DNA of 64,000 bases from Burkholderiales bacterium (GTDB lineage Bacteria; Pseudomonadota; Gammaproteobacteria; Burkholderiales; JAHFRG01): the NCBI GenBank assembly GCA_035543335.1, contig DASZZH010000006.1:1-64000 (forward strand), given 5' to 3'. The position numbers were made by a program, and so were the translations under genes. The stretch's first letter is position 1; each line of letters opens with the position of its first letter. Below the pieces are notes generated by a model that saw nothing but the letters and a program-made list of their open reading frames with translations, was not told where the DNA came from and made no database searches. Below, one piece after another: positions 46,626 through 52,272 of this stretch.

Positions 46626-48029
46626 TCAAGCGAGCTGCGAGAGCTGGCCGGCAAACGCTTTTTCATCCTCCAGGCAGCGCAAGTCCAGACAAAACGCATC
46701 GTCCTCTATCCTGCCTATCACCGGAACCGGCAGTGCACGAAAAGCGGCGGCAATTTTCTCAAGCCAGGTGCCGGGATGGCGCTCCGTCTGTGGCGGCAAA
46801 ATCGCGATGCAATGGCTGGGAAGCATCTCGACCGGCAGCGCGCCGCTGCCGATTTGGCTGTGGCAAGGCTTCATCGAGACGCGCGCTCTGCCTGCAAGGC
46901 TCTTTTCAACGAGCGGCAAAAGTCTTGCCGCCAGAGCCTCAATCTCTTTTTGCGGGCGCGTGAGGAGCCTTAGCGTCGGCAAGCGCTCCTTGAGCCGCTC
47001 GGGGTCGCGGTAAAGGCGCAGCACCGCCTCCAGCGCGGCGAGCTTGATTTTGTCCACGCGCAGCGCGCGCTTCAAGGGATTCTTCTTGATTTTTTTCAAG
47101 ACCTCTTTCGCGCCCACAATCAACCCCGCCTGTGGGCCGCCTAAAAGCTTGTCGCCGCTGAAGGTCACGACATCGGCACCGTGGCTCAAGGTCTGCTGCG
47201 GCGTGGGCTCGGCAGGCAAACCAAAATCCTTGAGATTCACCAGTGTGCCGCTGCCCAAATCCACCATGAACGGCAGACCGTGCTTGTTGGCGAGCGCGGC
47301 GAGTTCCTTTTCCGGCACCGACGCAGTGAAACCCTGAATCGCGTAATTGCTGGTGTGCACCTTCATGAGGAGCGCGGTGTGCGCATTCAGCGCATCTTCG
47401 TAATCCTTGAGATGGGTGCGGTTGGTCGTGCCGACTTCTATCAGTTTGCAGCCAGCGCGCTTCATGATGTCGGGGATGCGGAACGAGCCGCCGATTTCTA
47501 TGAGCTCGCCGCGCGAAACCGGCACTTCCTTGCCAAGCGCCAACGTATTCAAAACGAGGAACACCGCCGCCGCGTTGTTGTTCACCACCGTGACCGCCTC
47601 CGCGCCGGTGAGTTCGCACAGCAAGCGTTCGACGTGCTCGTCGCGCTCACCGCGCGAACCGGATTTGAGATCGTATTCGACATTCGCGGGTTTGCTCATC
47701 ACTTCGAGCACCGCTTGTTGCGCTTCCTCGGGCAAAAGCGCGCGCCCAAGATTGGTGTGGAGCACGGTGCCGGTGAGATTGAAGACCGGCCGCAATGAGG
47801 GCTTTTCGGTTTCCTCCAGCCGCGCGCGGCATTGCGCTTCGAACCACGTTTCGTCGAGGCGCGCGCCATTACCCGAGGCGACTAGGTTTTTGCGCGCTTG
47901 CGCGAGCAGCGCGCGCACCGAAGCGAGCACCGCCTGACGGCCGTAGCCATCAATGAGCGGCTTGAGCGCCGTGAAATTCATCACGCGGTCAACCGAAGGC
48001 AGCGCAGTCAAGCCGGCTTTATCGGACAA
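46626..48029 (-). CDS. selA: L-seryl-tRNA(Sec) selenium transferase
   Basis: A 467-residue PLP enzyme that converts seryl-tRNA(Sec) to selenocysteinyl-tRNA(Sec) with selenophosphate. Conserved blocks are NLTGTVLHTNLGRALL, LLCELTGAEAVTVVNNNAAA and VTFSGDKLLGGPQAGLIVG, whose lysine binds PLP. The start is TTG 48029 with GAGGTAAGG before it, lying in the 17 bases between tRNA-Sec and selA. It is therefore probably the last gene of a selB-selC-selA unit. Confidence 0.95.
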   Translation of the reverse strand: MSDKAGLTALPSVDRVMNFTALKPLIDGYGRQAVLASVRALLAQARKNLVASGNGARLDETWFEAQCRARLEETEKPSLRPVFNLTGTVLHTNLGRALLPEEAQQAVLEVMSKPANVEYDLKSGSRGERDEHVERLLCELTGAEAVTVVNNNAAAVFLVLNTLALGKEVPVSRGELIEIGGSFRIPDIMKRAGCKLIEVGTTNRTHLKDYEDALNAHTALLMKVHTSNYAIQGFTASVPEKELAALANKHGLPFMVDLGSGTLVNLKDFGLPAEPTPQQTLSHGADVVTFSGDKLLGGPQAGLIVGAKEVLKKIKKNPLKRALRVDKIKLAALEAVLRLYRDPERLKERLPTLRLLTRPQKEIEALAARLLPLVEKSLAGRARVSMKPCHSQIGSGALPVEMLPSHCIAILPPQTERHPGTWLEKIAAAFRALPVPVIGRIEDDAFCLDLRCLEDEKAFAGQLSQLA

Positions 48030-48046: not shown

Positions 48047-48143
48047 TGGCGGAAAAGAGTGGGAGTCGAACCCACCAAGAACCGTCAGACGGCCCTTCCC
48101 GGATTTGAAGTCCGGACGCCCCACCGGGGAACGTATCTCTTCC
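48047..48143 (-). tRNA. selC: tRNA-Sec (UCA), selC
   Basis: A 97-nt tRNA with encoded CCA. It has an eight-base-pair acceptor (GGAAGAGA with TCTTTTCC), anticodon loop CTTCAAA (anticodon TCA, reading UGA), a long variable arm (GAAGGGCCGTCTGACGGTTC region) and T-arm TGGGTTCGACTCCCA. These are the hallmarks of bacterial tRNA-Sec. It lies between selB and selA in the same orientation, so it must be processed from their transcript or have its own promoter at the selB end. Confidence 0.96.
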
Positions 48144-48161: not shown

Positions 48162-50102
48162 CTACACTTTTTTCTGCACGGAAGCTGAATCGCCGAACAC
48201 TGCGCTCCAGTCGCGGCGGATTTTGCGCCCCTCCTCCACGCGTATCGTGAAGCCGCTGCGGTCAAAAAATTCGAGCAGCGGTATCGCCAGGCTGCGGTTC
48301 ACTCCCGTGCCATCGCGGAACTGCACCACGGTAAACACCCCACCCGGGTTTTTCTGCGCGAGCGCCTGGGTGGCGGCGGCGATTTGCGCCATGACTTTCG
48401 GGTGGAAAAATAATTCCTCAGAAACTTGCCGGAGCTTACCCATTTGCGCAAGCCTGCGCAACAGCAGGCGTAATTGCTTTTCCTCGACCCGAAGCTGCTG
48501 CGCAAGCTCGCGCACCTTGGGCGCTTTGAGAGCAGCGGTTTGCAACAGCAGCACAATTTTTTCGCTCAAGGCCTGGTCCTGCGCAGAGAGTTTCGACTGA
48601 TGGCCAGGCAACCTGAATGCCGAGCCTTCGCGCGCGACTTTGTTTTCCGCAATCAGCACCTCAAGCACGGCGTTAAGGAGCGGCTGGGACAACCTTTCCG
48701 CCAAGGCTTTCCTGAGTTCGGCCGGCGTTGCGCCCGATTGGTCGGGATTGCGCTTCTGGCAGGCTGCGAGCGCGTCGAGCGCGTATTGCTGCAACTGTTG
48801 CCAGCGCTCCGTAGCAAACGCCAGGAGCTTGCCGGCGACCGTCGCTTTGGCCATGGGCGCTTTTTCCCAAAACGAATGTGCTTCTTCAGCGGTCAGATTC
48901 CAAGCGAGCGCAAGCTTTTGCAAATCCAGACCTAGCGGGCTTAGCGCGAGCAATGCGCTCAACGCCATTTCAGGCGTGGCGCTTTCCAGAGTGGAGAGAA
49001 TAGAGAGACGCTGCGGTTTGCGCCTGCCGCGCTGCGGCGGAAAAGGATCGATAATCGCGCCGCCGCCGAGGGTGCGGGTCGCCGACTGGTCGCGGATGAT
49101 GAAGCGGTCGCCGCGCAGCGCGCCCACGGGCTCAGCCAGCACCAGTTGAGCGAGCGCGCTACTTCCCGGTTCGAGCGCGTTTTGTTCGAGCAAAGCGACT
49201 CGGCCAGCAACGTCGGAGGCGCCCACGTGGACGTGCACCGGCGTCCAGTGCTTGAGCGGCCTCGCTTCCCCGGCCAGCAAGTTCAGGCGCGCATCGAAGC
49301 AGGCTGTCGGCGCGTGCGCCCCTTCCGCCACAATCCAGTCGCCGCGCTTGATGTCGCTTTTCTCCACGCCGCCGAGGTTCAGTGCGCAGCGCTGGCCCAC
49401 GCGGCCACTGAGAGAGGCCTGGTTTTGCGCGTGTATGCCTCGTACTCGCACCGGCAGGCCATTGGGCGAGACGATGAGCTTGTCGTTTAATTTCACTTCG
49501 CCCGAAAACACCGTGCCTGTCACCACCACACCGATTCCAGGGAGTGTAAAGCATCGGTCCACAGCGAGGCGGAAATGGCCGTTTGGTGGGCGTTGCGGTG
49601 TATTCAGCATTGCTTCGCGCAAATGCTTTTCCAGCGCGGCGACGCCCGCTCCCGTTGCCGAGGAAACGGGAAAGACCGGCAGATCTGCAAGCGCGGTTCC
49701 TTGAAGCAGGGATTGAATTTCTGCGGTCACCGCGTTGACCCGCTCCGCACTCGCCAAATCGGTCTTGGTCAGCGCCACCGCGCCGTGCGACAAGCCGAGC
49801 AGGTGCAAAATGGCGAGATGTTCGCGGGTCTGCGGCATGGGGCCGTCGTCGGCAGCCACCACCAGGAGCACGTAATCGATGCCGGTCGCGCCGGCGAGCA
49901 TGTTGTGGATGAATTTCTCATGCCCCGGCACGTCGACAAAACCCAGCACCGCGCCTTCGGGTAGCGGCTTGTAGGCGAAGCCCAAATCAATTGTAATCCC
50001 GCGCGCCTTCTCCTCCTTGAGGCGGTCGGCGTCAATGCCGGTCAGCGCTTTCACCAGCGAAGTCTTGCCGTGGTCTATGTGTCCCGCCGTGCCGATTATC
50101 AA
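48162..50102 (-). CDS. selB: Selenocysteine-specific elongation factor SelB
   Basis: 646 residues from TTG 50102, chosen because GGAGG lies nine bases upstream and the protein then begins directly with [19 protein letters not shown], the G1 loop. [13 protein letters not shown] and TKTDLASAE are the other GTPase motifs. EF-Tu-like domains II and III follow, and then the C-terminal winged-helix repeats (about residues 390-646) that bind the SECIS hairpin. It delivers Sec-tRNA to UGA. The full-length C-terminal domain shows it is built for bacterial SECIS reading. Confidence 0.95.
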
Positions 50103-50117
50103 TGCAATCTGCCTCCA

Positions 50118-50152
50118 CAAAAAAAGAGCCCGTGCGCCTGCACGGGCTCTTT
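50118..50152 (-). terminator. Rho-independent terminator between the solute-binding protein and selB
   Basis: On the minus strand an 11-base-pair stem AGAGCCCGTGC/GCACGGGCTCT is followed by seven T. It ends the solute-binding protein transcript. The selB ribosome site begins only a few bases after the T run, so selB needs read-through or a promoter overlapping this hairpin. Confidence 0.9.
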
Positions 50153-50169: not shown

Positions 50170-51693
50170 CTACTTCTTGATCGTCGTTTCAGCCAGCTCG
50201 AGCACGGTGGTCTTGTAAGGCACAAAATTCACCTTGTTACTCACCGCGTAGAGCTTGGAGGGCGAGGGCAGGAACAGCACTTGCGCGTTGGTGTGCACAT
50301 AGCTGTCAATTTCACGCGTCAGTTGCTCCTGTTTCGCCAGGCTGCTCGTCGCGTAGGTCTTCGCGATCAGGGCCCCCAGCTTTGGATCGACCGGCCCCTT
50401 GCGGAAGCCGCCGTCCTCGCCGAAGAACTCGCGGTACACCACGCCGACCGGGAAATTAGGCGACCAGTCGAAGTGCTCAACCAGCATGATGTCCCAGTCA
50501 CCCTTGGCTTCGCCCACGATATTGACCGACACGCCGGCCTTTTCCATGCTCTTGGCAATGACATCGGCGACGCCCCTGTGGCCGTCATCGGAGACGATGG
50601 TGATGCTGCTGACGCCGGCCCGGCTCAGAGCCTGCTTCGCCGCGGCCGGGTTGTAGCCATAGGGCTTCATGCTCGGGGTGGAGGCGAATTGGCCGGGTAT
50701 GATCATGGAACCGATGACCGTGCCGTAGCCGCCCATGCCGTCCTTCACCACCGTGCGGCGGTCAACCGCCAGGTTGATGGCCTTGCGCAGACGTGCGTCG
50801 TTCCACTTCGAGCTGGACGACTCTTGGTTGAACACGCCGACCAGAACCGTCTTGGCCTTGCTCTTGACCACGTGGGCGTTCTTGCTCTTCCTGACTTGCG
50901 CCGCCTCGGCGGGCGTGAGCTCGGTGACGATGTCGACCTTGCCGCCTTTCATCACCTCATCCAGCGCTTCCGACTTGGAAATCACGTTGTCGAACTGCAT
51001 TGTAGCTTTCGGCATGCGCCCCTTGTTCCAATAGTTCGGATTGGGCACCAGAGTGACAACGGGTGCGCGCTTTTCCAGCGTCGACACGCCGTCTTTCAAC
51101 ATAAACGGGCCAGTCCCCCACGGACCGGCTGCGTCAATCACTCACCAATGCGCTTCGGCTTTACCGGTCTTCTCGTCGATAAAGCCGAGTTCGTTCCAGA
51201 AGCGCGTGCTGCCAACGTGCATGCCGCGCAGCTTCATGAACGTGGAACCGTCAGTCTTGGGGAAGGTAAAGCGTACGGTGTGGGCGTCAATCACGTCGAG
51301 CTTGGCGCCCTTGGCGTAATTCAAAAACGCGCCCGGCGGATGCGGGTTCTCCCAGCGCTGTACTTCGTCAAAGCTGCGGCGGAACATCTGGCCGGTGAAC
51401 TTTTCGCCGTCATGAAACTTGACACCTTTGCGCAGTTTCACTTCGAGCGTTTTATCGTCCACCCATTTCCAGCTTTCCGCCAGGTTCGCCACCATCCGGC
51501 CGTCCTTGTCCACGCGCACCAGTTCTTCCATGGTGTTCCAGGTAATCCAGAGCCAGTTCACGGGAGAGGGATCGACGACGGTAATGGTGTTGCCGCTGAC
51601 TGCCAGCGCGGACGGCGAGGCGAGCGTGAAGCCTATCGCCATTGCCGCTGCGAGGCCGGTCAGTTTTTTCTTGAACTTCTGAACGGGTAACAT
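50170..51693 (-). CDS. Family-5 solute-binding protein with in-frame UGA: probable selenoprotein
   Basis: 507 residues from ATG 51693 (AAGGAGG site eight bases upstream). The Sec signal peptide ends near SPSALA. The family-5 (peptide/nickel-type) fold shows [51 protein letters not shown] and the C-terminal domain to 50170. An in-frame TGA at codon 184 (51142-51144) sits in [15 protein letters not shown]. The protein continues in the same frame for 323 codons with no other defect, and a SECIS-like hairpin follows. Selenocysteine is therefore the likely residue. No permease or ATPase gene adjoins it, so ordinary uptake is not evident. Confidence 0.82.
51109..51129 (-). promoter_or_regulatory. 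Predicted bacterial SECIS element
   Basis: On the minus strand, eight-base arms GCCGGTCC and GGACTGGC pair completely (one G-U) around the five-base loop GTGGG. The loop starts 20 bases after the UGA. Counting the U of UGA as 1, its G-U lies at 24-25, next to 23-24 in the E. coli fdhF SECIS. It satisfies the usual bSECIS rules (distance, stable stem, G early in the loop). Confidence 0.78.
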
Positions 51694-51729: not shown

Positions 51730-52272
51730 CTAACCTACCAACTGCTGCAAAATCTGTTCGAGCTTGCCTTTGGGAATTTCCCCAAGAAAGGTGGATACCA
51801 CCTTGCCCTTAGCGTCAATCACGATGCTGAACGGGAGCCCCCCGACTTTATTGCCCATTTGCTTTGAAAGATTCACCACCTCGGCGCCGCCGTAAACAAT
51901 CGGGTAACTGATGCCGTGCTCCTTGGTGAATTTTTCGACCTTGTCGGCGTTGTCCACCGCGACGCCCACAATCACTACGTCGCGCGAGCGGTATTTGTCG
52001 TAGATCTTGATGAGCTCGGGAATCTCGGTGAGGCAGGTTTTGCACCAGGTGGCCCAGAAATTCACGACCAGGGTCTTGCCCTTCCACTGGCTCAAGGGCT
52101 GCATTTTGCGGCCGAAATCCTTGAAGTTCGAAGCGAAAACCGGGTCGGAGGAAAGCTCTTGAGCGGACGCGAAAGGGAGCGGTGCGGCGATATTACCGAT
52201 GAACCCAGTAATCAAGGCGATACCCGCCAAGGCGGTGAAAATTTTTCTCGCTGGGCGCAGCGTGCCACTCAT
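51730..52272 (-). CDS. TlpA-like periplasmic thioredoxin
   Basis: A 180-residue protein with an N-terminal signal or anchor (ALAGIALITGFIGNIAAP) and a thioredoxin-like domain: LVVNFWATWCKTCLTEIPEL has the redox motif WCKTC, IVGVAVDNADKVEKF follows, and the cis-Pro is in GGLPFSIVID. TlpA proteins reduce periplasmic disulfides or deliver reductant to metalloprotein assembly. It starts 36 bases upstream of the solute-binding protein region on the same strand, so the two are likely one operon. It is a natural redox partner for the selenocysteine. Confidence 0.88.
   Translation of the reverse strand: MSGTLRPARKIFTALAGIALITGFIGNIAAPLPFASAQELSSDPVFASNFKDFGRKMQPLSQWKGKTLVVNFWATWCKTCLTEIPELIKIYDKYRSRDVVIVGVAVDNADKVEKFTKEHGISYPIVYGGAEVVNLSKQMGNKVGGLPFSIVIDAKGKVVSTFLGEIPKGKLEQILQQLVG

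Follow-up and report, generated by a model that had tools for sequence, protein, structure and literature searches.

The window, a 64,000-nucleotide stretch of DNA from a Burkholderiales bacterium, encodes what is in all probability a new selenoprotein, SBP-U (positions 50170 to 51693, minus strand), a predicted family-5 solute-binding protein with selenocysteine (Sec) at residue 184. The reading frame from 51693 to 50170 contains a sole in-frame stop, a TGA at codon 184 (51142 to 51144, minus strand), and the read-through product is 507 residues long. A reading of this DNA from the sequence alone had described a single TGA splitting an otherwise open family-5 gene, and the profile match bears this out: residues 67–412 match PF00496 (SBP_bac_5; E = 4.8e-54, 184 bits against a gathering score of 32.4) on both sides of the TGA. 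The same reading had proposed a new family-5 selenoprotein with Sec184, a proposal upheld here by a conserved TGA followed by a SECIS-like hairpin, by purifying selection after the TGA, and by linkage to sel genes. As far as comparative genomics can show, Sec insertion at codon 184 is close to certain, and the broader view that the TGA is decoded as Sec and that the gene belongs to a cassette is highly probable. The whole protein contains no Cys residue. Its AlphaFold2 model (pLDDT 84.8, with a moderate value of about 61–64 in the Sec loop) has family-5 solute-binding proteins as its closest solved structures (Z about 35), and thus a predicted cluster-C binding-protein fold, that of NikA, GsiB/GbpA, and DppA.

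SBP-U was found in five genus-level lineages, with 44–67% identity between lineages. Orthologues of the window protein occur in G028 and G074 (one genus), in G332 and G274 (one genus), in G606 and G483 (one genus, from another order within the class of the window), and on pNYY1_1, a plasmid of the cultured alphaproteobacterium Methylobacterium radiotolerans NYY1, whose copy likewise carries the TGA. SBP-U is therefore directly testable in a cultured bacterium. All seven orthologues in the alignment have the TGA in one shared column, and the G483 copy also reads TGA there. After the TGA, pN is 0.22 against a pS of 0.64 in the comparison of the window with G028, and dN/dS is 0.06 between G028 and G074; in less diverged comparisons pN is much lower than pS both before and after the TGA. 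This pattern bears on the possibility that the TGA is a true stop, either within a pseudogene or between two halves of a gene with re-initiation right past the TGA. A GTG does directly follow the TGA (TGAGTG) in the window, G028, and G074; however, the next codon is GTC, which is not a start, in G332, G274, G606, and Methylobacterium. The TGA has been retained across 44–67% identity, the sequence on either side of it is under purifying selection, and selB is closely linked; a true stop is therefore extremely improbable, and the pseudogene and split-gene interpretations were ruled out by conservation.

Some records of the gene are irregular. The G074 copy (L036/L015) has a frameshift after the signal region and a transposase-like ORF a short way downstream, and that genome gave no SelB match above cut-off; this copy possibly reflects an assembly error, or decay after the loss of selB. 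In Methylobacterium, SBP-U (L108, 11754–13516, NZ_CP090580.1) is omitted from the PLSDB gene table though its neighbors are listed, with locus tags RS29210 and RS29215 skipped, and it was probably called a pseudogene in RefSeq.

The putative SECIS element is an 8-bp hairpin with a 5-nt loop, GCCGGUCC-GUGGG-GGACUGGC (51109 to 51129, minus strand), recognized by folding and by comparison of orthologues. It begins 12 bases past the TGA and spans bases 16–36 counted from the U of UGA, which places the G-U of the loop at nucleotides 24–25; the stem length, the loop, the 12-base spacing, and the position of the loop G-U had been noted from the sequence alone and are present in the window. The hairpin fits the description of bacterial SECIS elements, which form just past the UGA and carry a G in a small apical loop (PMC1088965). 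It is contained in the minimum free energy structure (−18.4 kcal/mol), with a stability that is unexceptional (z = −1.55; 11 of 200 shuffled sequences fold equally well). Because hairpin energy alone is weak evidence, the case for Sec rests on the relatives. The segment CCGTGGGGGACTGG is the same in all seven aligned copies. When one copy per lineage was taken from the five lineages, codons for identical residues used a single codon at 3 of 5 positions in the hairpin versus 7 of 121 elsewhere (Fisher p = 0.003). In G606 the outer pair has changed from G-C to C-G, and G606 and Methylobacterium each have one mismatch. A one-column shift of the pairing leaves 64.6% or 47.9% of the cells paired, compared with 95.8% in register. 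Formal covariation is weak, with one double change and 163 of 500 shuffles doing equally well. The hairpin is near-invariant across the orthologues, with the exception of the G483 copy (L089, around 5096), where an 11-nt deletion removes the 5′ arm and shifts the frame while the TGA remains; this is either an assembly error or real decay. No SECIS motif turned up when viral contigs were scanned for it.

A homologue with Cys at the Sec position is usual for bacterial selenoproteins, though not obligatory, and none was found for SBP-U. Among more than 1,200 genomes (searches at the level of order, class, and phylum, several hundred genomes each, with some overlap), no Cys-containing or TGA-free SBP-U was found; in the same searches, homologues above about 36% identity are TGA copies only, and the next full-length relatives reach 33%. 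The search of plasmids likewise found no Cys form, the best plasmid match itself carrying TGA, and phages gave no SBP-U match. An alignment with 17 SBP_bac_5 proteins shows that the stretch around Sec (about AEAHWUVIDAAG), directly before the conserved GTGPF, is mostly gapped in the other proteins, and Sec is thus predicted to sit in an insertion that is specific to the family and directly precedes the GTGPF strand. The sequence-only reading, which called for an alignment at codon 184, is partly supported: close relatives do carry TGA followed by a hairpin, as expected, but no relative with Cys appeared. The suggestion that Sec replaces a Cys found in relatives is not supported, as every close homologue found has TGA and the relatives at 33% identity or less are without the Sec-bearing insertion. 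Because no Cys form was found, searches based on Sec/Cys pairs would miss SBP-U.

The gene order of the cassette is [tlpA]-sbpU-selB-selC-selA. That selB, tRNA-Sec, and selA follow downstream on the same strand, as first read from the sequence, is confirmed by profile and tRNA searches: selB, the selenocysteine-specific elongation factor, lies at 48162 to 50120 (minus strand; TIGR00475, 435.7 bits against a cut-off of 242), selC, a tRNA-Sec with anticodon UCA, at 48051 to 48143 (minus strand; ARAGORN; RF01852, 68.8 bits), and selA, the L-seryl-tRNA(Sec) selenium transferase, at 46626 to 48029 (minus strand; TIGR00474, 607.5 bits). Two further features of the window went unmentioned in that reading. 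The first cassette gene (51730 to 52272, minus strand) encodes a TlpA/ResA-like thioredoxin with a CxxC motif (FWATWCKTC) that is probably exported (PF08534, 1.7e-24; ResA/TlpA models), and an intrinsic terminator, a 13-bp stem followed by a T run, lies between sbpU and selB (50123 to 50152, minus strand). A hairpin and T run occur at the same site in G028, G274/G332, and G606 (L039, L037/L038, and L088), an arrangement that would fit either a higher output of SBP-U than of the sel proteins or regulated read-through. The sequence of the terminator is specific to each of the four lineages in which it is present.

The sbpU gene is immediately 5′ of selB in the window, G028, G332, G274, G606, G483, and the M. 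radiotolerans plasmid. TlpA-like genes accompany six SBP-U copies and are 36–86% identical to one another (47–53% between the window gene and the other five); none was seen beside the Methylobacterium gene. Directly upstream of sbpU and in the same direction, two lineages (G274/G332 and Methylobacterium) carry a MarR-family regulator whose best PDB matches are OhrR (E = 3e-34 and 5e-27). Their scores do not reach the cut-off of NF052638, whose name refers to Vibrio; a Cys aligns with the LCFALY motif of OhrR, and by homology they are OhrR-like, with the position of the sensing Cys kept. SelA, SelB, tRNA-Sec, and SelD are all present in the genome. Within roughly 116 kb of plasmid read in M. 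radiotolerans, neither selA nor selC was found.

In Sec-decoding alpha- and betaproteobacteria, selA-selB-selC have been described beside fdhA, the sole selenoprotein gene, and FdhA or SelD has been proposed as necessary for maintenance of the Sec trait (Zhang et al. 2006, PMC1794560). Across the seven SBP-U genomes, no molybdopterin-family match contains a TGA, nor does the formate dehydrogenase (FDH) of the Methylobacterium plasmid. All seven genomes searched for SelD, of which five carry SBP-U, have the gene, and none of these SelD genes contains a TGA. Other selenoproteins in the window genome are excluded for the families tested. As a positive control, each annotated fdnG in FDH-linked plasmid operons showed one internal TGA within the motif ARV-U-HGP. 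On a Terrarubrum plasmid, a TlpA-family gene (L110, 456–1034) on the other strand adjoins a Sec-dependent FDH/sel operon. A congener of the window bacterium without sbpU (G001) has a molybdopterin-family gene with TGA adjoining its own sel genes.

In a SelB tree of 17 sequences, which has a small reference sample and a long Methylobacterium branch, the seven SelBs linked to SBP-U all lie to one side of a branch with support of 95/94, separate from FDH-linked SelBs. They group together although their hosts come from more than one order and class and G001 belongs to the genus of the window. Taken together, the TGA-free molybdopterin and SelD matches and the SelB branch suggest a cassette that has been co-inherited and moved horizontally. 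SBP-U seems to have taken the place of FdhA in maintaining the trait, and the combined proposal of a cassette with trait maintenance by SBP-U is probably correct. Within the order, 102 of the 399 genomes carry SelB, and SBP-U is therefore a minority user of the Sec trait.

Genes for SBP_bac_5 proteins are usually encoded with an ABC permease and ATPase. Neither was found in the SBP-U cassette loci examined, and the one other SBP_bac_5 gene of the window genome has its own Opp-type permeases. Signal-like N-termini, judged by eye in the proteins from the window, G274/G332, and G606, could point to export in most lineages, while the Methylobacterium protein, whose start has a good ribosome-binding site upstream, apparently has no signal peptide. 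Because SBP-U has no permease of its own and apparently no signal peptide in Methylobacterium, transport is probably not its main job. In a profile search SBP-U fell below every named NCBIfam equivalog cut-off; the nearest named models are nickel-binding proteins, and the NikA-type equivalogs score 109.3 bits against a cut-off of 600 and 100.9 against 393.

The absence of a permease and of an equivalog match, the TlpA-like and OhrR-like neighbors, and the apparent absence of a signal peptide in Methylobacterium lead us to favor, tentatively and from the neighboring genes, a redox-active binding protein recharged by TlpA; the lack of Cys in the window protein is also counted as support. With high probability, the SelB, tRNA-Sec, and SelA encoded alongside decode the TGA as Sec under the direction of the hairpin that begins 12 nt further on. 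In the tentative redox role, the cleft of SBP-U would capture an oxidized or electrophilic ligand, which its single selenol would attack or reduce; the selenol would then be restored by the TlpA-like thioredoxin encoded with it or, in Methylobacterium, by a cytosolic thioredoxin. In two lineages, the OhrR-type thiol sensor could switch on the operon under peroxide-type stress.

A less likely alternative is a scavenging or uptake protein in which Sec coordinates a soft metal or organometal, an idea comparable to that put forward for the SAO systems. The nickel-binding models, though far under their cut-offs, are the nearest named ones, metal ligation has been suggested for Sec in SaoB and SaoC (2026 review, PMC13188914), and a lone selenol without a resolving Cys would suit the role of a ligand. 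However, no metal genes adjoin sbpU, whose neighbors are instead a thioredoxin and a peroxide-type sensor, and SBP-U has no permease and is unrelated to SaoB and SaoX. It is improbable that SBP-U serves the uptake of a selenium compound by borrowing another permease. The operon shared with selA, selB, and selC would fit such a role, and the Opp-type permeases of the other SBP_bac_5 gene in the window genome could be shared; but a dedicated permease is missing, the Methylobacterium copy seems to be without a signal peptide, and a need for Sec in the very protein that fetches selenium would be self-limiting. If the favored redox role is combined with the cassette, a selenoprotein of a third kind, distinct from both FdhA and SelD, could suffice to maintain and spread the Sec trait, namely a redox protein with a solute-binding fold and without a Cys counterpart for its Sec, which travels in a transmissible cassette together with a thioredoxin partner and a SelB lineage of its own. 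We consider this possible, short of probable.

A 2026 review (PMC13188914) inventories 119 prokaryotic selenoprotein families, among which the binding proteins are SaoB, SaoX, and BtuF and none belongs to SBP_bac_5; in our search of the open-access literature, too, no family-5 binding protein with Sec was found described. SBP-U would add a family absent from this inventory. SaoB (NF040727) and SaoX (NF040735), like SBP-U, are predicted Sec-containing solute-binding proteins, but they belong to other sequence families, have the motifs CUxxT and UxP where SBP-U has HWUVID, and belong to the SAO system, none of whose genes was seen here. The solute-binding selenoprotein of the SAO systems had been offered as the closest idea; SBP-U has no match to SaoB or SaoX at E ≤ 10, and membership in these families was rejected. 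The BtuF selenoprotein (cd01144) also has Sec in a periplasmic binding protein (PMC13188914), but it is of another family and has the motif CxxU, whereas the Sec of SBP-U has no accompanying Cys. NikA, GsiB/GbpA, and DppA share the fold and Pfam family of SBP-U but have neither Sec nor the insertion, and the nearest non-Sec relatives found reach no more than about 33% identity; SBP-U for its part is without permease partners. The Sec-dependent FdhA/FdnG operons with selA-selB-selC resemble the SBP-U cassette in that one selenoprotein gene lies beside the sel genes in a laterally mobile unit (PMC1794560). They differ in that SBP-U is a binding protein rather than an enzyme of formate oxidation, in the gene order [tlpA]-sbpU-selB-selC-selA, and in a SelB that falls across a supported branch, and the SBP-U cassette would be a clear exception to the maintenance of the trait by FdhA or SelD in alpha- and betaproteobacteria (PMC1794560).
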